Shown: one piece after another, positions 847 to 51,988 of the stretch | Numbering within the stretch: position 1 is the stretch's first letter | Layout of the letters: each line of letters begins with the position of its first letter | Source of the DNA: a virus | Length of the DNA stretch: 63,194 nt | Direction: 5' to 3' (one strand) | Virus record (IMG/VR): IMGVR_UViG_3300028194_000318 | Span: 1 to 63,194 of that record | Position numbers and translations under genes: made by a program | Notes under the pieces: model-generated | Databases searched by the model: none | What the model saw: only the letters and a program-made list of their open reading frames with translations | What the model was told of the DNA's origin: nothing

Positions 847-3800
847 ATGGCAAGATGTCCAAATAAAAATACTGCAGAGTATAAAGCATTACAAGATGTA
901 TTTCAAACAGAAATAAGAACTAATAGTGTTATAAATACTTGGCAAGACATTAATAACTCAGATGCATTTCCTACACCTTTTCAGGCTAATGAGATGGTGT
1001 CTGATCAGAAAGTTGCTTTTGCTTTAAAACAAAAATCATTTGGATTAAGTTTATTAGATAACTTACGTAGAGAACATATAGGTCATACATTCCAGGGACA
1101 ATTTTTAATTAATAATTCTAACCCAGTTACAAGAGAATATGACTCAATGTTTTTAGATGCTAATGTTAAAAAACTATATAGATATTTAAGAATAAACAAT
1201 ATACCTGCTGACACAGTTACATTACAAAGAACACCAAAGACATATAGACTAATTGTAAATGAGGATTTATTTACTAATAAAGATGTACTTGAAAAGTCTA
1301 GGTCATGGGATACTAATAGGTCTAGAGAGGTTGTTATGCACCTAAAAAGAATGTTTCCACAAGTTAATGTAGAAATGTTGAGTGTTACTGAAGCTGCAGA
1401 TATGTTTTCTATGTTTCCAGAATGGAAGAAGAGTAATGTTAAATTTAAAGATGTAAAATCTTTTTATGTAGACGGTACAGCATACTTAATAAAAGGTAGA
1501 GTAACTGATGAGACAGCAATAGAAGAAATGCTACACCCTTTAGTAGATGCAATCAAAGTAGACAACCCTGAATTATTTAATGGTTTGTTAGCAGAGGCCA
1601 GCAAGACTTTTCCAGAAATGGTTCAGCAGATAAAAGCTGAGTATAATGAGAATACCAGAAACTTTAGTGATACTGAAAGAAATCTAGAAATAGTAACACA
1701 AGCCTTATCAAGACACTTTAAGAAAGAATATGAAACTAATCCTAGCCAAGGATTCCTAGACAAAGTAAATGAGTTTATGGATTGGTTTATGGAACTTATA
1801 AATAACCTTAGTGAGTATTTAACAGGTACACCTTTATCTGTAAAAGATATAAACCCAAGTGGTAACTTAAGTGATATTGCTAAACTTTTAAATACAGAAA
1901 GAATACAATTTAAACTGGAGAGTAGAGCTGATGGAAAGATAAGGTTTAGTTTATCTCCAGAAAAGAAAAGACAGGTTGATCAAGCCTTGTCTGAAGCTAA
2001 TGGGGTACAAGCAGAAATAATAAAAAGTTTATTTCATGTAGCCAACTCATCAGATGTTGAAGTTAATTCATTGTCTGGTAGCAGATTTAAAACTGAAGAG
2101 GAAATGCAAAGAGGAGACTCAGGAGAAACCATTGTTGTTTTAAATGAGAAGAATCACACATACTATGATATAACAGATAAGCTTCAGCAGAAACCATATA
2201 CCTCAGTTACTACAGCAATCAAAGGCACTCTTAAAAACTTAGAAGATGTTCAGCTTAATTTAGATATTGGCAATGATGTTGATGCTTTATTAGATGCTTT
2301 GGTAACACACCGTAGTGTAGAGGATGTATTTGATCAAATGAAAGTTGTAGATCTAGAGACTGCTAAAACTGTTTATAATACATTACAAACTACACTAACT
2401 AATATAATGCCTGAAGGATCTATTGCTTTATCTCAAGTTGTAGTATTTGACAAAGCAACAAAAATGGCTGGTACAGCTGATTTAGTTATTGTAGATAAAA
2501 ATGGTTTTATTAAAATTGTAGATTTAAAGACTACAAAAAATTCTTTAAAAACCTATACTACAGAAGATACAAAGGTAGGGAGAAAACAAACTGTATATTA
2601 TGATAAAGAATGGGCACTAAATGAGGATAGTTTATTGAAACAAAAAGGAATTGATAAATTATCTACTAGAGGTCAACATAACCTACAAGTAAACATTTAT
2701 AGAAGGATGTTTCAGAATATGGGATATGATGTATACATGGGAGACTATGCTGCATCTACTTTTCATTTAGTTGCTGATATAAGTGGGAAAGGAAAGAACC
2801 AAAAGTTCAATGGAAATATTAAGTCTGATCAATGGGTAGATCATCCTATATCTCAGAATATTAATTATGTTAATATGCTTATGCCGCTCAATCCTGACAC
2901 AACTAAGAAGGAACAGTTGGATGAGCTTACTAAGGATATGGAAGATAAACTGGTTGATCCAGATGTTGTTCCTGCAGATTTAGTAGAAGAAGATGAAAAA
3001 GTAGCAGAAACGGTTACACCAGTTCCAGAAGATCCAGTATATGATACTATTTCTGGCATACTTAAAGAATACCAATTATCATTAATAAATAAAATAGATT
3101 TACTTGAGGCAAAGAAATTAGCCAAAGCTTCTATATTTATTGATAGAACAAAAGATGAAGCAATAGAACAATTGGCTTCTACAATTGCTTTTATTAATAT
3201 AGCAATGAGTGAGGGGCCTATAGCTAGATCTTCTGCTTATTCAGAATTATTACAAGACTCACTAAGACAAGTTAGAAAGTTTAGTGCCTATGTTCAAGAT
3301 CCTAAGAACTTTGCTAAATCTGAATACATTACTTATGTATTAAATTTTGATAAGTTTATAAAAACATTCCAAGGTTTACAAAGCATTACTGATCTAGCAC
3401 CTTTAAATGCAACGCAAAGATCTTTAATATTGTCTCTTAAGACAGATCTTAATAAATTAACTGGTGCTGATGGAACACAACAAGGTTTAATAGATGGTGC
3501 TATTAATGATTATGTTAAGGAAATTATTAGAAACAAATCTAATAGAGCTTATGGTGAAGAAGGAAGCTTCTTTACAGAAGCAAATCTAGAATTGTTGTTA
3601 AAAGAAGCCAGAGACATCTCTGGTACAGATCTTTACACTAGGGATTTGGCTACACAAGGTGATGTTATTTTAGCTTTGATGGATAAAATATATAAGTCTA
3701 AAAAACAAGAGCTATTAGATAAAGTTGCAGAAAGAGAAGGTGTAATTAAAGCAGCAGGTAACCAAGTAATTAAACTTACACCCAATGCAAAACGTAATAC

Positions 3801-6684
3801 AGCATATAATTTTATGTTAGTATATGATGAGAATGGTGAGTTTACAGGTAACTATGTAAAAAAGATTGGTCAACAGTACTATAAAAAGCAGGAAGAACTA
3901 AGAGCACCGCTATATGATAATGATAATAACCCATATCAATATGAAGAAATTTTAGCATCTGATATAGAAGAGCTTAAAAAAACCAAAGAGGGACGTGCAA
4001 AAATAAAATATAATCAAGATCTTGCAGATGCTAAAGCTGCATTCAGTGCATTCTTTAGAGCTGAAAGAACTACAGATGAACAGTATGATGATGGTGAATA
4101 CCATACATATACAAAAGAATTTAAAGATGCAAGAGATAGAGTAGAATACTATGTGCCTGGTAAAGATGGTAGTCCTTTTGGAAATTGGTATAGAAAACCA
4201 CGTGTTTCTGATGTACAATATGCAAAGTATGAAGCTAGGTATTTTAAAGTAAATGAGTACACTAAAGCAATAAGAATAGATGGGGTACCTACTGGAGCTG
4301 TAGTAGCTGGTCAAACATACCGTTCACCAAAAGTAAAGTATAGAGTAGCATTAGAAAGAAGTAATCCAGTAGATGGCTTACCTCAAGATATGACTAGTGA
4401 ACAATATAGAAGCATTATGAATCCTAGTGATGCATTAGGAATAGCACAAAAAGAATTCTATGAATTGTTTGTACAGTATTTTGAAAATGAACTTCTAGAA
4501 AAGTTACCACAGAATGTTAAAAATAACATGCTTGGTAGAGTACCGTTAGTTCAAGGTGCTGCTATTAATACTATGAAAAAGAAGTCATCCTTCTGGAATC
4601 AATTGTATGCAAAAACTGTAAGAAGCAGAACATGGAATATGTTTAATAAAACTTCAACTCAAAAAGGAGTTATGGTAGATCCTGTTACTGGATATATTGT
4701 AGATCAGATGCCTATTTTTTATACAGGTAGGCCAAAGATTGATGGTGAGATGGAACAAATAGAAAAGGAAAAACTTGCTATACAAGACCAATATAAAACA
4801 GGTAAGAAGCAAGATGGTACTACATATACAGAAGATGACTATAATATTGATTTAGCTGGGATTAATGGTAAGTTAGCTAGAATAAGATCAACACCTAGTG
4901 TAGGAGAAATTAGTACTGACTTAGCAACCAGTCTTATTAAGTTTAGTGCAATGGCAGAAAACTTTGAGACAATGGCTACTATTGATGATACTCTTAATGC
5001 AATGATGAAAGTTATAGAAAACAGACATTATCAACCATCTGAAGGCTCAGGTATAACTTTTATAGATAAAGTAAAAGGTGTAGTTTCAGGAACACCAAAA
5101 AGCAAATATGCTAAAAATGAAAATACAAAGAAGAGAGCTCAGAAATGGATGAGTCAAGTGTATTATGATAATGAAAATATTACAAAAGGAGCAGGTGATA
5201 AAATAGCTGAGGGAATTATTCAACTGTCTTCTTTGTCTTATGTAGCCTTTAACCCTTTTGGTAACTTTAATAACTACTTAATTGGTAGAGTCAATAACAA
5301 TATTGAATTACTAGCAGGTAGGTTTGTAAGTAGAGATGCACAACTAAGAGCATCAAGAGAGTTTAATAAAAGAGCCTTACCTGATATGGTTTCAAGAACA
5401 GGTGCAGCAATGACAGATGCAGTTGACGTACTTACATTTGGTAAAATACCAGGTTTAAAATCAAGTGAGTATGATCCTAAAAGAGCTAATAGTAAATATG
5501 AAGCATTTGTAGATATGTTTAGGATGATGGATAAGATGTCTGAATTGCGTGAACAGGGAGCAGATACTGCAGAGGGCAAAACTTGGTTTGAAAGAGCAGC
5601 TGAATGGGGTTATGTAATGCAAGATGCAGCAGAATATAATGTACAAACTAAAATGGGTATGGCTGTTTTGATGGATACTACTATGCTTAATCCAGACACT
5701 GGGGAAACATTATCTTTATATGATGCCTTTATGTATGATGCCAAGTCACACACAAATAAAATTAAAGAAGGTTTTACCAAGATTGTTAAGTTAGATAAAA
5801 ATAACAAAATAATTAAAGGGAGTGAGCAAGACTATACTAATGAATTTAGATATGATTTAAGAAATAAAATCAGAGAAATAAATAAACAAATTCATGGTAA
5901 CTATGCTAGAGAAGATAGGATGGTTATGCAACAACATACATTAGGTAAACTTGCAGTTCAATTTAAGAAGTGGGTGGCACCTGCTATTAGAGCTAGATAC
6001 CAAAGAGAATACTTTGATGAGAATCTAGGTTGGATGGAAGGTAGATATAGATCTGCTCTTAGCTTTTTAAGATATACAGGTCAACAACTTAGAAAAGGTA
6101 ATACAGAATTTAATACCTATGGTAAAGGTTTTATGGAAGCACAAAAAGGATATGATGGAAAAGGTGGAAATGCAGATCAACGTGCACAGAATAAACTATT
6201 TGGGTTCTATAGAACAATGGGTGAGATAGCTATTATGACAAGTGCACTATTAATCAACTCTATATTAAGTGAATTACTAGCGGGAGATGGAGATGATACT
6301 GACTTAGAAAGAAGAATGAAGAATTTATCTAAGTATCAAGTAAACAGAATTTACAAAGAGATGGTGTTATTTATGCCTTGGATTCCTGATGGAGGTAAGC
6401 AAGTATTCCAACAGTTTGGTAATCCAGTAGCTGCCACTAGAACTTTTGGTGAGTTATCTGAACTATTAGGAATGACATTAGTAACTGGCTATAAAGGTCT
6501 GAGACTCAAAGCAGGAGGTAAAGAAGAAGATTATTTCTATGGAGATAGTTCAATAGTATATCAGAAAGGTAAAAGAAGAGGTGAACTTAAGTTATACAAA
6601 AACTTTAAGGATGTATTTCCTATTGTGTATAGTATTCAGAAATGGGAGTCTTATTTAACTAATGATGATTTCTATATAAAATAA
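847..6684 (+). CDS. Giant polyvalent protein with embedded PD-(D/E)XK nuclease domain
   Basis: 1945 aa, far longer than any single-domain enzyme. At residues about 225-230 it has I-E-E-M-L-H-P, which looks like an HExxH metallopeptidase helix with the first His lost. Residues about 445-640 resemble RecB/Cas4-type PD-(D/E)XK nucleases: a G-T-A-D segment with D545, then D559-L-K561 followed by TTK, then a Q-V-N-I-Y motif. Long helical stretches follow, and a hydrophobic segment lies at about 1791-1812 (ending S-E-L-L-A-G-D-G-D-D). Known polyvalent or internal virion proteins of phages have this kind of mosaic and can enter the cell with the DNA; that role is inference. It starts 8 nt after the preceding gene and has no detectable promoter of its own. 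Confidence 0.8.
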   Translation: MARCPNKNTAEYKALQDVFQTEIRTNSVINTWQDINNSDAFPTPFQANEMVSDQKVAFALKQKSFGLSLLDNLRREHIGHTFQGQFLINNSNPVTREYDSMFLDANVKKLYRYLRINNIPADTVTLQRTPKTYRLIVNEDLFTNKDVLEKSRSWDTNRSREVVMHLKRMFPQVNVEMLSVTEAADMFSMFPEWKKSNVKFKDVKSFYVDGTAYLIKGRVTDETAIEEMLHPLVDAIKVDNPELFNGLLAEASKTFPEMVQQIKAEYNENTRNFSDTERNLEIVTQALSRHFKKEYETNPSQGFLDKVNEFMDWFMELINNLSEYLTGTPLSVKDINPSGNLSDIAKLLNTERIQFKLESRADGKIRFSLSPEKKRQVDQALSEANGVQAEIIKSLFHVANSSDVEVNSLSGSRFKTEEEMQRGDSGETIVVLNEKNHTYYDITDKLQQKPYTSVTTAIKGTLKNLEDVQLNLDIGNDVDALLDALVTHRSVEDVFDQMKVVDLETAKTVYNTLQTTLTNIMPEGSIALSQVVVFDKATKMAGTADLVIVDKNGFIKIVDLKTTKNSLKTYTTEDTKVGRKQTVYYDKEWALNEDSLLKQKGIDKLSTRGQHNLQVNIYRRMFQNMGYDVYMGDYAASTFHLVADISGKGKNQKFNGNIKSDQWVDHPISQNINYVNMLMPLNPDTTKKEQLDELTKDMEDKLVDPDVVPADLVEEDEKVAETVTPVPEDPVYDTISGILKEYQLSLINKIDLLEAKKLAKASIFIDRTKDEAIEQLASTIAFINIAMSEGPIARSSAYSELLQDSLRQVRKFSAYVQDPKNFAKSEYITYVLNFDKFIKTFQGLQSITDLAPLNATQRSLILSLKTDLNKLTGADGTQQGLIDGAINDYVKEIIRNKSNRAYGEEGSFFTEANLELLLKEARDISGTDLYTRDLATQGDVILALMDKIYKSKKQELLDKVAEREGVIKAAGNQVIKLTPNAKRNTAYNFMLVYDENGEFTGNYVKKIGQQYYKKQEELRAPLYDNDNNPYQYEEILASDIEELKKTKEGRAKIKYNQDLADAKAAFSAFFRAERTTDEQYDDGEYHTYTKEFKDARDRVEYYVPGKDGSPFGNWYRKPRVSDVQYAKYEARYFKVNEYTKAIRIDGVPTGAVVAGQTYRSPKVKYRVALERSNPVDGLPQDMTSEQYRSIMNPSDALGIAQKEFYELFVQYFENELLEKLPQNVKNNMLGRVPLVQGAAINTMKKKSSFWNQLYAKTVRSRTWNMFNKTSTQKGVMVDPVTGYIVDQMPIFYTGRPKIDGEMEQIEKEKLAIQDQYKTGKKQDGTTYTEDDYNIDLAGINGKLARIRSTPSVGEISTDLATSLIKFSAMAENFETMATIDDTLNAMMKVIENRHYQPSEGSGITFIDKVKGVVSGTPKSKYAKNENTKKRAQKWMSQVYYDNENITKGAGDKIAEGIIQLSSLSYVAFNPFGNFNNYLIGRVNNNIELLAGRFVSRDAQLRASREFNKRALPDMVSRTGAAMTDAVDVLTFGKIPGLKSSEYDPKRANSKYEAFVDMFRMMDKMSELREQGADTAEGKTWFERAAEWGYVMQDAAEYNVQTKMGMAVLMDTTMLNPDTGETLSLYDAFMYDAKSHTNKIKEGFTKIVKLDKNNKIIKGSEQDYTNEFRYDLRNKIREINKQIHGNYAREDRMVMQQHTLGKLAVQFKKWVAPAIRARYQREYFDENLGWMEGRYRSALSFLRYTGQQLRKGNTEFNTYGKGFMEAQKGYDGKGGNADQRAQNKLFGFYRTMGEIAIMTSALLINSILSELLAGDGDDTDLERRMKNLSKYQVNRIYKEMVLFMPWIPDGGKQVFQQFGNPVAATRTFGELSELLGMTLVTGYKGLRLKAGGKEEDYFYGDSSIVYQKGKRRGELKLYKNFKDVFPIVYSIQKWESYLTNDDFYIK

Positions 6685-6788: not shown

Positions 6789-8060
6789 ATGAAAAAATGT
6801 ATACATCTGCTGGTCATCTTTATTCTATTTTATACACCCCTTCAAGCACAAATAGATACTCTTCCAGAAGATCAAATAATTAAACTTAAAAAAGGTTGGG
6901 AAAAAAAACAATTCTTTAAGGGTCTTTATGAAGACTTTTTAAAGTATGGTACTATATATGGTGCTGGTGATATAAACAACTCTATAGAAGCTGATGAGTC
7001 AACTTATTTTGTTAGAACAGGAGATGGGAATGGTTTATATGATATTCCTGTTGTTGTAGATAATACACCTGAATATCCATTTGATTATAGAATAGGTTTT
7101 GGTATTAGAAAACTAGCAAGGTTTAGTTATGAAAGAAAACCTAGAAACTTTTATGATGGTACTGAAGAGCAGTTAGCATTTAGTGCACCAACATCTGCAT
7201 TAGCAGGTTTAGAATATCAATTACATTGGGAAAAGGAACGTTGGAGAGGGGAAGACTTCAGGAATCATAGGTTCTTTATAAAGCACACAGGCAAACATCA
7301 CATATTTAAAGTTGAGTCAAGAGAAGTAGGAAAGATAAACCTAGCTTATGAGTCAGCAGAAGCAAGATTAAGGTTACCTATAGGAGAAAAGTTTAGCATT
7401 TCTGCGGGTGCAATCTACCGTACTCACTCCCGTGCATATGGTTATAATCCAATTGAGATCTGGTTAAATGAAACAGTGATGTATACTGACCCAAATACAG
7501 GTGAACAGTTTGAATATCCAGCAAACCCTTGGTATACATTAGGATTTGAGTATGGTTATACTGATCATTTTACTACATACACAGATGCTAATACAGGTGA
7601 GGAAATGCAAGATTGGATTTGGAAAGATGAAGATGGAAATATTGTAGCTTATTCTGATATTGACTTTAGAGAAACTATATTTACCCAGCTAATGAACCGC
7701 TTTAATAGTGAGGCATTGTCAGAGATAGATGCATTTGGTGAGATAGCACCAATAGTAGGAATGGATTTTTATCATTATAAAAGAAATTTCTGGTTACATG
7801 CATATGCAAATTATATACTACCATATCACAGATACTTAAAAGGAGATGAAGTTGTTTCTTATTTAAATAGAAATAACTGGGGTAAAGGAGGTTTGAGAGA
7901 AGATTCCAAGCTAGAGCAATGGGCAGACTATTCTTTTGGTGCTAATTTAGGTTGGAAGATTAATAAAAATTTAGGAGTGTTTGTTGAAGGAGAGTACTCT
8001 AAGATGTGGGACAGCCAACTGTTCCAATCAACAGTAGGATTAAATTATACATTTAAGTAA
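6789..8060 (+). CDS. Exported outer-membrane beta-barrel-like protein
   Basis: 423 aa with a clear signal peptide (residues 1-21, ending LQAQ, the usual flavobacterial cleavage context). The mature part has many alternating hydrophobic and aromatic strands separated by polar loops and ends in V-G-L-N-Y-T-F-K, close to the aromatic end typical of outer-membrane barrels. The strong signal peptide argues against a tail protein. It is the first gene of a cassette with a membrane/coiled-coil protein and an exported thioredoxin-fold protein, behind its own promoter-like element. Possible roles are receptor masking against superinfection, envelope remodelling, or disruption of the outer membrane at lysis. 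I do not recognise the exact family. Confidence 0.6.
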   Translation: MKKCIHLLVIFILFYTPLQAQIDTLPEDQIIKLKKGWEKKQFFKGLYEDFLKYGTIYGAGDINNSIEADESTYFVRTGDGNGLYDIPVVVDNTPEYPFDYRIGFGIRKLARFSYERKPRNFYDGTEEQLAFSAPTSALAGLEYQLHWEKERWRGEDFRNHRFFIKHTGKHHIFKVESREVGKINLAYESAEARLRLPIGEKFSISAGAIYRTHSRAYGYNPIEIWLNETVMYTDPNTGEQFEYPANPWYTLGFEYGYTDHFTTYTDANTGEEMQDWIWKDEDGNIVAYSDIDFRETIFTQLMNRFNSEALSEIDAFGEIAPIVGMDFYHYKRNFWLHAYANYILPYHRYLKGDEVVSYLNRNNWGKGGLREDSKLEQWADYSFGANLGWKINKNLGVFVEGEYSKMWDSQLFQSTVGLNYTFK

Positions 8061-8073
8061 AAAAAATAAAACA

Positions 8074-8361
8074 ATGGCAGAAGTACCTCAGATTGGAGAA
8101 CAAACAAAAGTAACTTTAGATCTTAAAACAATTGGAATGATAGTGGGATTTGTAATTTCATTATCAACCATGTGGTTTACATTAAAGGCAGATATAGCTC
8201 AGGCTATGGAAAACCCCAAACCACCAATAGAAAGGGTAGAATATGATTTAAAAGATGAACTTGTAAGACAGACCATAATGGAAACCCAGGAAGACGTGGA
8301 GATGTTGCTTCAGAAGTTTGAAAAAATGGAAGAAAGAATCTATGAGTTAACCAAAAAATAA
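8074..8361 (+). CDS. Small membrane protein with C-terminal coiled coil
   Basis: 95 aa. Residues about 18-38 form one transmembrane helix; residues about 55-95 are charged heptad-like helix (many Glu and Lys) ending E-L-T-K-K. There is no signal peptidase site. The A-rich leader AAAAAAAATAAAACA precedes the ATG, 13 nt after the barrel gene. One membrane anchor plus a coiled coil would fit an inner-membrane spanin-like or holin-accessory protein, or a tether for its exported neighbours; the sequence does not decide. Confidence 0.65.
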   Translation: MAEVPQIGEQTKVTLDLKTIGMIVGFVISLSTMWFTLKADIAQAMENPKPPIERVEYDLKDELVRQTIMETQEDVEMLLQKFEKMEERIYELTKK

Positions 8362-8365
8362 TATT

Positions 8366-8779
8366 ATGAAAAAGGTTTTGTTGTTTATTCTAGCATTGTT
8401 TATTACCTCAACTATACAAGGTCAACAGTGGGTTAGTGATGATAGCTTTACTGATGAAATAAACGGACATTCAGGTGATCAAGATGAAGATATAGTTATT
8501 ATAGAGTTTTGGGCAGAATTTAATAAAGACAATGCTTTTGTAGAGTGGGAGAAGGTAGATGACCTTGACGGTGTAAAATATTTAAGAGCTAACATAGCCC
8601 TTTGCCCATCATTAAAAAAAGAATTTAGAATTAGAATGGTGCCCACTATATTAATTTTTTCAGGAGGAGACGCATTTATAAAGTTCAAAGCTAAAGCCGG
8701 TCTAGACCTCCTATGCCCTGTAGACTATCCTAGGATGGTCAGAGCAATAGAGGTTGTTAGACGAGAAGCTTCTTACTAG
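8366..8779 (+). CDS. Exported thioredoxin-fold protein lacking the CxxC active site
   Basis: 137 aa with a signal peptide (residues 1-20, ending TIQGQ). The mature part follows the thioredoxin pattern: a strand with I-I-E-F-W-A-E, then R-M-V-P-T-I-L-I-F with the conserved cis-Pro segment, then a final helix. Where thioredoxins have W-C-x-x-C this protein reads F-N-K-D-N, so it cannot do thiol-disulfide exchange there. Two Cys remain (in A-L-C-P and L-L-C-P), which could form a structural disulfide. It is a periplasmic partner or chaperone-like fold rather than the RNR reductant. Its TAG stop overlaps the stop of the converging nrdA gene. Confidence 0.7.
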   Translation: MKKVLLFILALFITSTIQGQQWVSDDSFTDEINGHSGDQDEDIVIIEFWAEFNKDNAFVEWEKVDDLDGVKYLRANIALCPSLKKEFRIRMVPTILIFSGGDAFIKFKAKAGLDLLCPVDYPRMVRAIEVVRREASY

Positions 8780-10401
8780 CCTTCACAGCTAGAGCATTCC
8801 AAAATATTTCTTGCAAAATCTTGAGCACTACTTTTACTAAATTGATAGTATAAAGTTTTTACTCCTTCCTCCCAAGCATATAAATACAATTGATTAATCT
8901 GTTTAGCAGATACTGATGGGTCAATCATTAGGTTTAGTGACTGTGACTGATCAATATACTTTTGTCTTTGTGCTGCCTGCAAAACAAGTTCTTTAGGTGT
9001 AATCTCAACAAAAGATTTAAATACAGCTTTGGTAGGAAAGTTTAAGTGTTGGACACTACCATCTTTTTTTAAGATAGACTTCCAGGTCTTATCTGTATTA
9101 AGATCATACTTATCAAGCTCTGCCTCTAGAAAAGGGTTTTTATACACTGTTTTAGATTTAGCAAGATCCTTAATAAAATAATTAGACTTGATAGGCTCTA
9201 TACCCATAGACACAGCACCATGTATAAAAGAACTAGACTTTGTAGGAGCTATAGCCATAAGAGTAGTATTAGCATAACCTTCTCTCAAAGATCTGTATCC
9301 CCATGCACCATGCAACTTTCTTGATGCAATTTCACTTCTATCTTTTAGAGTCCTAAATATTTCTGAGTTAAGTTGTTTAGCTTCAAGTGACTCAAACTCT
9401 ATTAACTTAGATTGAAATAAAGAATGGTATCCTAACACACCTAAGCCAATTGCTCTATGTTTCTCAGCAAAATTAAAGGCTCTCTTCATCCCAGGCATTG
9501 TCTCTGCTTTAATAATAAACTCATCCATTACTGCATTTAAAAAGTATACATATGTTTGTATAGCATCTGTTTCTTTTATTTCATCCCAATGTAAAAGGTT
9601 AATAGATCCTAAACAACAAACAAAAGAGTTATAACTATCTGTTGGTAATTGTATTTCAGAACATAGGTTAGATGCTGTAATATCTAAACCTAGATCTTTA
9701 TATGGAGAATTGTTATTAGAATTATCTTTAAACATTATATAAGGATAACCAAACTCAGATCTACGTTGTATGATTTTAGCCCACACTTTACGTTTTTTTC
9801 TGTCTCCTTCTTTCATTTCTTCCATCCACTTATCTGTGACAGTAATACCATACTGTAGGTTCTGTATAGGATTGCCTTCAGTACCTATGTCTAGAAACTC
9901 TTCTATGTCAGCATGCTCTACAGGTAAGTACACTGCACATGCACCACGTCTTGCCTCAGACTGTTTACAAACATCTACAACTGTATCATACATTCTAGCA
10001 TAATGTATAGGGCCATCAGCATGACCACCTGTAGATATTTCACTTCCTCTAGGTCTAATGTTTCCAAGGTATGCACTTGTTCCTCCACCATACTTAGACA
10101 TCATTCCAATTTCACGGCCTGCATTAAGTATACTATCTAAGTTATCATCTATGTTAGAACCATAACAACTAATAGGTAGTCCTTTCTGCTTGCCAAAGTT
10201 AATCCATACAGGAGTAGACAGAGAGAAAAAACCTCTTGCCATATAATCCTCAAACTTTTCAGCAAAGCCTTTGATGTTTAAATATTTTTCTGCCTTGATG
10301 GCAATGTCTTTAATTCTTTGTTCAGGTGTTTCTGTTATATATCCTCTTGATAAGAAGGTTCTGCTATCATCATTTAGCCAGTAATACTTTTTATATTCCA
10401 T
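8776..10401 (-). CDS. nrdA: Class I ribonucleotide reductase, large (alpha) subunit, short phage type
   Basis: Reduces ribonucleotides to deoxyribonucleotides for phage DNA synthesis, with NrdB. Counting from the longer possible start at 10425 (549 aa), conserved elements include S-C87-Y-G-S, the catalytic N253-L-C255-S-E257, the second redox Cys at C270/C271 (C-C-L-G-S-I-N-L), and a C-terminal C544-S-S-C547 pair for reduction by thioredoxin or glutaredoxin. The N-terminal ATP-cone is absent, so dATP feedback through that domain is not expected. I chose the ATG at 10401 (541 aa) because it follows an A-rich leader and clears the end of nrdB. Confidence 0.93.
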   Translation of the reverse strand: MEYKKYYWLNDDSRTFLSRGYITETPEQRIKDIAIKAEKYLNIKGFAEKFEDYMARGFFSLSTPVWINFGKQKGLPISCYGSNIDDNLDSILNAGREIGMMSKYGGGTSAYLGNIRPRGSEISTGGHADGPIHYARMYDTVVDVCKQSEARRGACAVYLPVEHADIEEFLDIGTEGNPIQNLQYGITVTDKWMEEMKEGDRKKRKVWAKIIQRRSEFGYPYIMFKDNSNNNSPYKDLGLDITASNLCSEIQLPTDSYNSFVCCLGSINLLHWDEIKETDAIQTYVYFLNAVMDEFIIKAETMPGMKRAFNFAEKHRAIGLGVLGYHSLFQSKLIEFESLEAKQLNSEIFRTLKDRSEIASRKLHGAWGYRSLREGYANTTLMAIAPTKSSSFIHGAVSMGIEPIKSNYFIKDLAKSKTVYKNPFLEAELDKYDLNTDKTWKSILKKDGSVQHLNFPTKAVFKSFVEITPKELVLQAAQRQKYIDQSQSLNLMIDPSVSAKQINQLYLYAWEEGVKTLYYQFSKSSAQDFARNILECSSCEG

Positions 10402-10411
10402 ATTGGTTTTT

Positions 10412-11389
10412 TTAAAAGAGATCATCTAAGGTGATACTCTTGCTTTTTTTATTATAGTCTACACTCTTTTTGTAAAAGAAGTCTCCCTCTTTTGTTCCAG
10501 TGATTTCTATGTCAAACCACTCTACTGATTTCAATAAATCTTCATTGACATTAAAGATTGGTTTCATACCTATCTTTTCTAATGAATTATTAAATCTATT
10601 TTTTATAAAGTGACGTATAGTTTCTTTAGGTAAGAAACTTAATTCACCTTGCTCAAATATCCAATCAAGGATACCACACTCTGCTTCATATGCTTTTCTA
10701 CATGCAGAATCAATAAGCTCTTCAAACTCTGAGTCAAACCATTCAGGGTTTTCTTTTTTAATAATATTAATTATCTCAGCACCAAAGTTACCGTGTATCT
10801 CTTCCTCTTTACTGGTAGCTTCAACAACGTTAGATATACCTTTGAGTACATTCATTTCTTTGTTAAAACTCATCATAATTAAGAACTGACTAAATAAACT
10901 TACATGCTCTATAAATAAAGAAAATAACAATACAGATTTAGTATACATTTTGTTATCTCTAGATCTAGTACCATCTAGATACTTTCTTAAGTACTTGATT
11001 CTGTTTGCAATAGCAGGTTCTTCTACAACATTTTTAAACTCATCTTCAAGACCAAGGATTCTAAGCAGTCTTGCATAAGCATCTTTGTGTCTTACCTCTG
11101 ACTCTGCAAAGGTAAAGCCTACATCTCCTACCTCAGTGATTGGCATTCTTTTATATAGGTCTCCCCAGAATGTTTTGACATTAACTTCAATCTGAGCAAT
11201 TGCTAGCATTGTTTTCTTTATAACATCTTTCTGGTTAGAGTTTATATTAATTTTAAAATCTTGTATATCTTCAGTAAAATTAAATTCTGTATCAATCCAA
11301 TAAGAATGTCTAATAGCATCTTTATATGCTAATAGTTGTGGGTATTCATATGGCAGGATATTTACTCTAGGTTCAAAGATGTTTTTCAT
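10412..11389 (-). CDS. nrdB: Class I ribonucleotide reductase, small (beta) subunit
   Basis: 325 aa, the di-metal radical-generating subunit. Visible ligands are E-V-R-H (first ExxH), E in F-I-E-H-V, and E-E-I-H (second ExxH). The Tyr seven residues after the first ExxH Glu (H-K-D-A-Y) matches the radical tyrosine. The position of the first ligand, Asp in E. coli, appears to be Glu here (A-Q-I-E-V-N-V), based on spacing only. The C-terminus ends S-I-T-L-D-D-L-F, a typical tail that docks into NrdA. It precedes nrdA by about 10 nt. A strong hairpin with a T-run lies just upstream of the start. Confidence 0.93.
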   Translation of the reverse strand: MKNIFEPRVNILPYEYPQLLAYKDAIRHSYWIDTEFNFTEDIQDFKININSNQKDVIKKTMLAIAQIEVNVKTFWGDLYKRMPITEVGDVGFTFAESEVRHKDAYARLLRILGLEDEFKNVVEEPAIANRIKYLRKYLDGTRSRDNKMYTKSVLLFSLFIEHVSLFSQFLIMMSFNKEMNVLKGISNVVEATSKEEEIHGNFGAEIINIIKKENPEWFDSEFEELIDSACRKAYEAECGILDWIFEQGELSFLPKETIRHFIKNRFNNSLEKIGMKPIFNVNEDLLKSVEWFDIEITGTKEGDFFYKKSVDYNKKSKSITLDDLF

Positions 11390-13793: not shown

Positions 13794-14204
13794 ATGCCAA
13801 ACTTTATAACAAAATTATTTTCAAGCGGAGCAACTAAATTAGTTGAAGGAATAGGTGGTGTCTTAGATGAGCTTATTACTTCTAAAGATGAAAAGCTAGC
13901 AGCTGAATTAAAGATAAAAGAATTAGTAGCAAAACATGAAGCAGAAATGGAAAAAGAAATTTCTTCTAGATGGGCTGCTGATATGACCAGTGATAGCTGG
14001 CTATCAAAGAATGTTAGACCTATGGTTCTTATTTTCTTAGTAGTGTCAACAGTATTATTAGTATTTATAGATGCAGGAGTAATTGAGTTTGAAGTAAAAG
14101 CTAGTTGGGTAGATCTACTACAACTGGTTTTAATAACAGTAATAGGAGCCTACTTTGGTGGAAGGTCAATTGAAAAAGTTAGAAAAAATAAAGATGGGAA
14201 ATAA
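13794..14204 (+). CDS. Holin, multi-TM type resembling the GTA/3TM holin family
   Basis: 136 aa. An amphipathic N-terminus and charged helix are followed by D-S-W-L-S-K-N-V-R-P, a hallmark just before the first membrane helix in this holin type, then TM segments at about residues 78-100 and 105-125, then G-A-Y-F-G-G-R-S-I-E-K. Such holins open the inner membrane so endolysin reaches peptidoglycan. The endolysin is far away at 51 kb. It overlaps the next gene by 11 nt. Confidence 0.75.
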   Translation: MPNFITKLFSSGATKLVEGIGGVLDELITSKDEKLAAELKIKELVAKHEAEMEKEISSRWAADMTSDSWLSKNVRPMVLIFLVVSTVLLVFIDAGVIEFEVKASWVDLLQLVLITVIGAYFGGRSIEKVRKNKDGK

Positions 14205-47368: not shown

Positions 47369-47770
47369 TTAAAGTTGAATGATTGTGTCACCACTATTGA
47401 TGACATCTGAAATTGGTATTGTTATGTAATAGTAGTCATCTTCCCAACCGCTTGGGTTAATAAGATACTGTCCATTACTGAATATATAATAGTCTGGATT
47501 ACTATTAGCTGAATCAAATGACCAAGACAACCATCCATTCATAGAGTGTGGTGGTGGTGTAGTAGCCATGTATATATCAAGATATACCTGATAATTATCT
47601 TGTGACCAAGCATGTGATCTAAATGTACCATTAGACTCTTGTCTTTCAAAGTACATAGTGATAGTATCATTTGGGTTTAGCTCAAATAAATTGCATGTTG
47701 GTTCTAACTCTTCTTTGACACAAGAAGACAATGATAGGATAAGGCCTATACCTAATAGTAATTGTTTCAT
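47369..47770 (-). CDS. Surface lipoprotein, candidate superinfection-exclusion factor
   Basis: 133 aa. Signal peptide with lipobox L-S-L-S-S-C17; the mature N-terminus is C-V-K-E-E-L-E. Flavobacterial lipoproteins carry a K-(D/E)2 export signal right after the Cys to reach the cell surface; K19-E20-E21 fits. The rest is polar, aromatic and beta-rich (W-L-S-W-S-F-D, D-D-Y-Y-Y-I-T-I-P). Phage-encoded outer-membrane lipoproteins elsewhere block receptors (T5 Llp). I infer the same here. Confidence 0.65.
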   Translation of the reverse strand: MKQLLLGIGLILSLSSCVKEELEPTCNLFELNPNDTITMYFERQESNGTFRSHAWSQDNYQVYLDIYMATTPPPHSMNGWLSWSFDSANSNPDYYIFSNGQYLINPSGWEDDYYYITIPISDVINSGDTIIQL

Positions 47771-51064: not shown

Positions 51065-51988
51065 ATGAGGCAGCTGAAGTTAGGAGATAGAGGTTCAGAA
51101 GTAAAAACACTACAAACTAAATTGGGTATACTTGTAGATGGACACTTTGGACCAATTACAGAAAAACATGTTGAAAGATTTCAATTAACTATGGAGTTAC
51201 CTGTAACAGGTATAGTTGATAGTGACTGTTGGGTTATTTTACTTAATGTAGAGAATTTAAATCTAGATGCAACAATTGATGAAGATACAGATATTAATAA
51301 ACAATATTTTACTACATCATATGATCAAGTAATTCATAAGTATTACCTACCTAAAGGTGAGTATTTAAAAGGACCAATACAAAATGAATATATTTTTTTA
51401 CATCATACTGCTGGTAATTCTAATCCTTATAGATGTATTGATCATTGGGGTAGAGATACTAGGGGGAGAATAGCCACTGAATTTGTATTGGGTGGGGTTA
51501 ATCATAGAAATGGTAATGATGACCATGATGGTGTTATGCTACAAGCTTTCCCAAAGGGAGCACAAGGTTGGCATTTAGGTAGAACAGGATCAGGATATAT
51601 GAACCGTCATTCTGTAGGAATTGAATTATGTAACATGGGTTATTTAGATAGTGACTATAAAACATATGTCAAATCTAAATGTCAGGAAGAACAAGTAGTT
51701 GCTTTAGATGAAGCTTTTAAAGGTAAACTTTATTGGCATGCTTACAGTGAAAAACAAATCAAAGAAACAGAAAAATGGATTAGATGGGTGGGGGAAAGAG
51801 ATGAAATAGATATTAGACTAGGATTAAAACAGTTTATTAAAAAACATGGTCCAACAAAAGGTTTTGATTTTCAAGATGATGCATTCTATGGTAAAGTAAA
51901 AGGGTTATTAACACATACTAACGTTAGGAAAGGAAAAATGGACTGTTATCCTCATCCTGATTTTGTAGATATGATAATGAGTTTATAA
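51065..51988 (+). CDS. Endolysin: N-acetylmuramoyl-L-alanine amidase with peptidoglycan-binding domain
   Basis: 307 aa. N-terminal peptidoglycan-binding domain (L-G-D-R-G-S-E-V-K-T-L-Q, D-G-H-F-G-P-I-T), then an Amidase_2 domain: F-L-H113-H114-T-A-G, G-W-H170-L-G, G-I-E187-L-C-N, and H284-T-N-V-R-K-G-K-M-D293, corresponding to zinc ligands and catalytic residues. No signal peptide, so release depends on the holin at 13.8 kb. Confidence 0.88.
   Translation: MRQLKLGDRGSEVKTLQTKLGILVDGHFGPITEKHVERFQLTMELPVTGIVDSDCWVILLNVENLNLDATIDEDTDINKQYFTTSYDQVIHKYYLPKGEYLKGPIQNEYIFLHHTAGNSNPYRCIDHWGRDTRGRIATEFVLGGVNHRNGNDDHDGVMLQAFPKGAQGWHLGRTGSGYMNRHSVGIELCNMGYLDSDYKTYVKSKCQEEQVVALDEAFKGKLYWHAYSEKQIKETEKWIRWVGERDEIDIRLGLKQFIKKHGPTKGFDFQDDAFYGKVKGLLTHTNVRKGKMDCYPHPDFVDMIMSL

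Follow-up and report, generated by a model that had tools for sequence, protein, structure and literature searches.

Three consecutive phage genes, termed here trio1, trio2 and trio3, form one unit that moves intact between crAss-like and T4-like phages of marine Bacteroidota and that may act in lysis by breaching the outer membrane (OM). The window, i.e., the whole stretch of DNA analyzed, is the 63,194-base IMG/VR virus record IMGVR_UViG_3300028194_000318, which carries a crAss-like terminase and portal and is probably part of a genome only. The original prediction had described three consecutive genes at 6789-8779, and we indeed found the ORFs there, all on the plus strand and separated by spacers of 13 and 4 nt. 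The features of the window used below are as follows:

6789..8060, plus strand: trio1, predicted exported OM beta-barrel protein of 423 aa, with ~12 strands and a signal peptide covering roughly the first 20 residues
8074..8361, plus strand: trio2, protein of 95 aa with a single N-terminal membrane segment and, behind it, a coiled coil predicted to lie in the periplasm
8366..8779, plus strand: trio3, predicted exported thioredoxin-fold protein of 137 aa, with an RMxPT motif and without CxxC
847..6684, plus strand: 1945-aa protein directly upstream of the trio, left flank of a variable site
8776-10425, minus strand: class I ribonucleotide reductase (RNR) alpha, convergent with the trio and bounding the variable site on the right
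10412-11389, minus strand: class I RNR beta, also convergent with the trio and part of the same right-hand border
13794..14204, plus strand: holin-type protein (phrog_3427), the nearest lysis gene of the window, 5 kb from the trio
51065..51988, plus strand: endolysin/amidase of the window phage, 42 kb from the trio
47369-47770, minus strand: the only lipobox-bearing ORF in a scan of the 63 kb, 133 aa, far from the trio

The trio genes are real, as judged by their purifying selection (dN/dS 0.06-0.34, one pair lacking any amino-acid change) and by their more than 100 relatives. The promoter-like element that had been placed before the cassette is attributable to chance, since a scan of the window gave 10 sites against 10.8 expected in shuffles. 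The 1945-aa upstream protein, for which a PHROG search returned no credible match, is probably a late virion protein; it includes a stretch that resembles, by eye, a PD-(D/E)XK nuclease.

The trio1 protein is a predicted integral OM protein. Its N terminus is a Bacteroidota-type signal peptide with an invariant Q at its end, and a lipobox was found in 0 of 81 homologues. An AlphaFold2 model of trio1 displays ~12 long antiparallel strands at moderate confidence (pLDDT 70, pTM 0.63), and a Foldseek search with this model returned 107 PDB matches at E<=1e-3, the best 50 of which are all OM or pore-forming barrel proteins, or complexes holding such proteins. At that confidence, the model fits an OM beta-barrel, which would be a closed antiparallel arrangement of at least 8 strands together with an export signal, and the barrel on which the original prediction had staked itself was thus obtained. 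The barrel belongs to no Pfam family, a PDB sequence search with trio1 gave nothing credible, and the best BFVD match was A0A516LKJ4 (E 1e-24). OM barrels had been called rare among phages; they are not unique to this one.

In trio2, hydropathy and alignment indicate one hydrophobic segment at about residues 19-37 and, after it, a charged helix of heptad pattern, in which a predicted coiled coil of ~55 residues harbors the conserved block EYDLKDELIRQTIMDTQEDV. This protein, the most conserved of the three, has the predicted topology expected of an i-spanin, i.e., an N-terminal transmembrane (TM) segment and a periplasmic coiled coil. It showed no sequence match to known spanin families, the Rz-like ones included; its profile matches were phrog_1009, to which no function is assigned, and, weakly, phrog 6664 and 29891. 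The trio3 protein likewise carries an N-terminal signal peptide of the Bacteroidota type that closes with an invariant Q, and none of its 77 homologues has a lipobox. Its thioredoxin fold is indicated by a Pfam match just short of the curated cut-off (E=1e-4), by PDB profile matches down to 3e-10 and by a structure model with a pLDDT of 86. While a cis-Pro-type RMxPT motif is retained, CxxC occurs in 0 of 77 homologues, and thioredoxin enzyme activity was rejected on this ground. The picture of two signal peptides and one membrane anchor therefore holds, and the sequence features and fold predictions uphold an exported cassette with one part predicted for each envelope layer.

We scanned IMG/VR independently with each of the three proteins as bait, which returned at least 107 relatives for trio1, 498 for trio2 and 407 for trio3. 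Among 238 loci, all 228 that are untruncated carry trio1-2-3 in identical order and strand, and the other 10 are cut by contig ends. The only departures, found later, belong to a divergent crAss-like lineage, whose barrel gene lies a few kb behind trio2 and trio3. The trio-bearing records have either a crAss-like portal (phrog_6547) or the T4-type capsid Gp23, and the portal falls into two score classes, here crAss-A, which includes the window, and crAss-B. On the trio1 tree we counted at least 12 changes among the three lineage labels (minimum 2; shuffled mean 27.7), with well-supported branches forcing 5-7 changes per group; the cassette therefore moves between unrelated phage lineages. What had been treated as the oddity of a single phage is widespread and transferable across IMG/VR records. 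A tblastn search of INPHARED isolates found none of the trio proteins. Scanning bacterial genomes yielded a single relative, a contig of 13 kb from a bin labeled Alphaproteobacteria (DQLC01000007.1, locus L082) that bears the trio and crAss-B genes and is probably a misbinned phage contig; given that this sole bacterial-bin relative carries the same phage genes, a host origin of the trio is unsupported. The 115-kb record IMGVR_UViG_3300025071_000006 holds two differing trio copies (L021 and L099, 77% DNA identity over 808 bases), unless it is a chimeric assembly.

With the last stretch of the 1945-aa upstream protein as a query, we fetched 54 relatives and compared what lies between this gene and the RNR genes. 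The site is occupied by the trio, by a PF05105 holin, alone or accompanied by a Pro-rich lipoprotein, by a lipoprotein together with a TM-coiled-coil protein, or by nothing, and the trio is missing from many close relatives that share the upstream gene; trio-less relatives retain the RNR genes at the same place. When whole records are considered, the gene for the TM-coiled-coil protein, with annotated matches that include weak ones to Rz-like spanins, is present in 11 of 18 trio-less compared with 4 of 17 trio-bearing records (Fisher p=0.04, uncorrected for relatedness). This pattern fits a lysis/envelope locus with alternative solutions, and could also be that of a generic variable spot.

The neighborhoods of 93 nonredundant cassettes (<90% identity) were then tallied, with lineage labels taken from neighbor genes. 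Annotated holin or endolysin genes lie near the trio at 22 of 23 crAss-B loci and at 22 of 31 T4-like loci (44/54 together), the T4-like labels being less certain than marker searches would give. The lysin type varies by group while the trio is constant: an M15 peptidase, a PG-binding plus Amidase_2 protein, a phrog_33083 lysin or a PF05105 holin. In one locus of the divergent crAss-like lineage (L381), the M15 endolysin gene overlaps the start of trio2 by one base (TAATG). In crAss-A, the lineage of the window, a lysis gene occurs within 3.5 kb of the trio in 0 of 16 cases. A T4-like locus (L044) has an overlapping gene pair near the trio (8893-9264 and 9146-9577), arranged like overlapping i-spanin and o-spanin genes, but without a lipobox, and its first member weakly matches Rz-like spanins (phrog_739, E 4e-5); a pair resembling it lies near ~5 of the 93 cassettes (c50 neighbors). 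The T4 late promoter (TATAAATA) was searched for upstream of the trio in T4-like loci and was not found. A CsgG-like identity for a 235-aa neighbor in T4-like loci was unsupported by Pfam, NCBIfam and PDB searches.

Proteins sorted by T9SS are a further feature of these neighborhoods. T9SS type A sorting domains scored above the cut-off in 8 of 46 trio-bearing records compared with 0 of 18 trio-less ones, and wherever a locus was read out, the protein bearing the domain adjoins the trio; the Por_Secre_tail domain is absent from the trio proteins and from the window. T9SS is not known outside Bacteroidota, which supports the assignment of the hosts to this phylum. Upstream of the trio in T4-like L044 (309-3247; the same genes are found in L049, L063 and L074), one protein combines cohesin and T9SS sorting domains, both above Pfam cut-offs, and adjoins a GEVED protein with a weak dockerin-like match; these genes possibly encode a cohesin/dockerin surface assembly. 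In the divergent crAss-like loci, proteins of 646-1160 aa with a T9SS C-terminal sorting domain (L377:25-1965, L379:3898-6360, L378:8981-12463 and L381:5486-8839) lie shortly upstream of the barrel gene; where the complete trio is seen, this position falls between trio3 and the barrel.

Based on these observations, we tentatively favor, at somewhat less than an even chance, a model in which the trio forms a complex of the lysis module that opens the OM, taking the part of a spanin without belonging to the spanin family. The trio1 protein would be exported and insert into the OM as a barrel, trio2 would be anchored in the inner membrane and extend its coiled coil into the periplasm, and trio3, as a periplasmic thioredoxin fold devoid of redox activity, would couple the two. 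After holin and endolysin have cleared the peptidoglycan, the bridged complex would destabilize or perforate the OM, a step that elsewhere is the task of i-spanin/o-spanin pairs. We favor this model because of the layout (inner-membrane coiled coil, periplasmic adaptor and OM barrel), the lysis neighborhood and the replacement pattern, and also because of the strict co-occurrence, the transfer between lineages, the overlap of endolysin and trio2 genes, and the single, distant lipobox ORF of the window. The original prediction had noted the lack of a classical spanin pair, in agreement with that one lipoprotein ORF in 63 kb of a probably partial record. Its suggestion of an unusual lysis route is supported by gene neighborhoods and gene replacement. 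The OM-breaking function itself is inferred, as are the membrane locations, complex formation and late expression. With more reserve, we consider it possible that the trio represents a new class of OM disruption, a machine of three proteins that would span the envelope, rely on an integral OM barrel in place of a lipoprotein, spread horizontally among unrelated Bacteroidota phages, and take on the role for which no spanin is known in many of them. Several observations argue against the lysis model: crAss-A loci have no lysis gene close by and the holin and endolysin of the window are remote, a coiled coil of this length is short to bridge the periplasm, a surface role is indicated by the T9SS-sorted proteins that adjoin the trio in 8 records, and no T4 late promoter was found ahead of the trio in T4-like loci. 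Moreover, the trio is not always the sole candidate, since ~5 of the 93 cassettes lie near a gene pair like that of L044 and 4 of the 17 trio-bearing crAss-A records keep the TM-coiled-coil gene.

The main rival, which we consider rather unlikely, is that barrel, adaptor and anchor alter the cell surface before lysis, either blocking other phages or aiding the display of phage-encoded surface proteins exported through the type IX secretion system (T9SS) of the host. The superinfection exclusion raised in the original prediction thus gains some support from the adjoining T9SS-sorted proteins, one of which also has a cohesin domain, and the predicted integral OM location of trio1 would suit it, as would the surface or lysis-timing roles proposed for csgGF, the curli-pore genes carried by pelagimyophages and by methylophage Melnitz (PMC7029224, PMC9004378). 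However, 38 of the 46 trio-bearing records, and the window, lack T9SS cargo, lysis genes dominate both the neighborhood and the gene replacement, and unrelated phages share a well-conserved barrel sequence, while variability is usual for exclusion proteins. PADLOC models gave no match, and a reading as a defense system was rejected on that ground.

It is improbable that the trio controls lysis timing rather than OM breakage, with trio2 acting as a holin of one TM segment, or as the partner of a holin (cf. T4 T/RI), and the periplasmic and OM parts as a sensor. The replacement of the trio by a PF05105 holin at the shared site, the class III holin-like layout of a single TM segment plus periplasmic domain, and the endolysin-trio2 overlap would all agree with such control, but 13 T4-like loci have the trio and a PF05105 holin together, trio-bearing crAss-A phages keep their phrog_3427 holin, and no sequence match to T or RI was seen. 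RNR alpha lies near the trio at 62 and RNR beta at 52 of the 93 nonredundant loci, in all three lineages, hinting at nucleotide supply through a porin that raises OM permeability to nutrients or nucleosides; this is slightly less probable still, given that trio2 and trio3 carry no transport or redox motif (no CxxC), that RNR orientation and family differ by lineage, the sequences being divergent, and that the RNR genes persist at the site in trio-less relatives. Very improbable is a role in the virion or in DNA entry, in which the proteins would either be packaged or mediate passage through the envelope during infection. The trio does directly follow a large, probably virion-associated protein in crAss-A and crAss-B, but many close relatives have the same upstream gene and no trio, and the signal peptides of trio1 and trio3 and the OM-barrel fold suit export from the infected cell, not packaging.

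Surveys list several phages of Bacteroidota, which dominate in the sea and the gut, as spanin-less. For the breaking of the OM in such phages, the trio is a concrete, compact, widely shared and testable candidate. Among known proteins, thioredoxins (PF00085) share with trio3 the fold and the cis-Pro motif; unlike them, trio3 is predicted to be exported and has no CxxC, so thioredoxin redox function is not expected. OM proteins are encoded by other phages, such as lambda Lom and the PA-2 Lc porin, which are single host-derived morons of prophages; they too are OM barrels, whereas the trio barrel is outside any Pfam family and tied to two partner genes. Phage csgGF likewise combines an OM pore with periplasmic partners in marine phages. 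The proteins are different, CsgG being an oligomeric pore, and the trio profile search found no CsgG, CsgF or CsgE homologue.

Given the absence of a lipobox and of a spanin family match, the trio is not a spanin by definition. It resembles two-component spanins (lambda Rz/Rz1, T4 PseT.3/PseT.2) in having a small inner-membrane protein with an N-terminal TM segment and a periplasmic coiled coil beside an OM partner, with holin and endolysin genes near; it differs in that this partner is an integral barrel with a signal peptidase I-type signal and not a lipoprotein, in the additional thioredoxin-fold protein, and in its separate genes, neither overlapping nor embedded. Kongari et al. count phages of Croceibacter and Bacteroides as spanin-less and raise the possibility of an OM protein in the o-spanin role (PMC6139136), and a 2025 survey reports no spanin type other than the unimolecular one in Bacteroidetes phages (PMC12596118). 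No trio protein has the N-terminal lipobox and C-terminal TM segment of unimolecular spanins such as T1 gp11, yet the trio would serve the same lysis step in the same host phylum.
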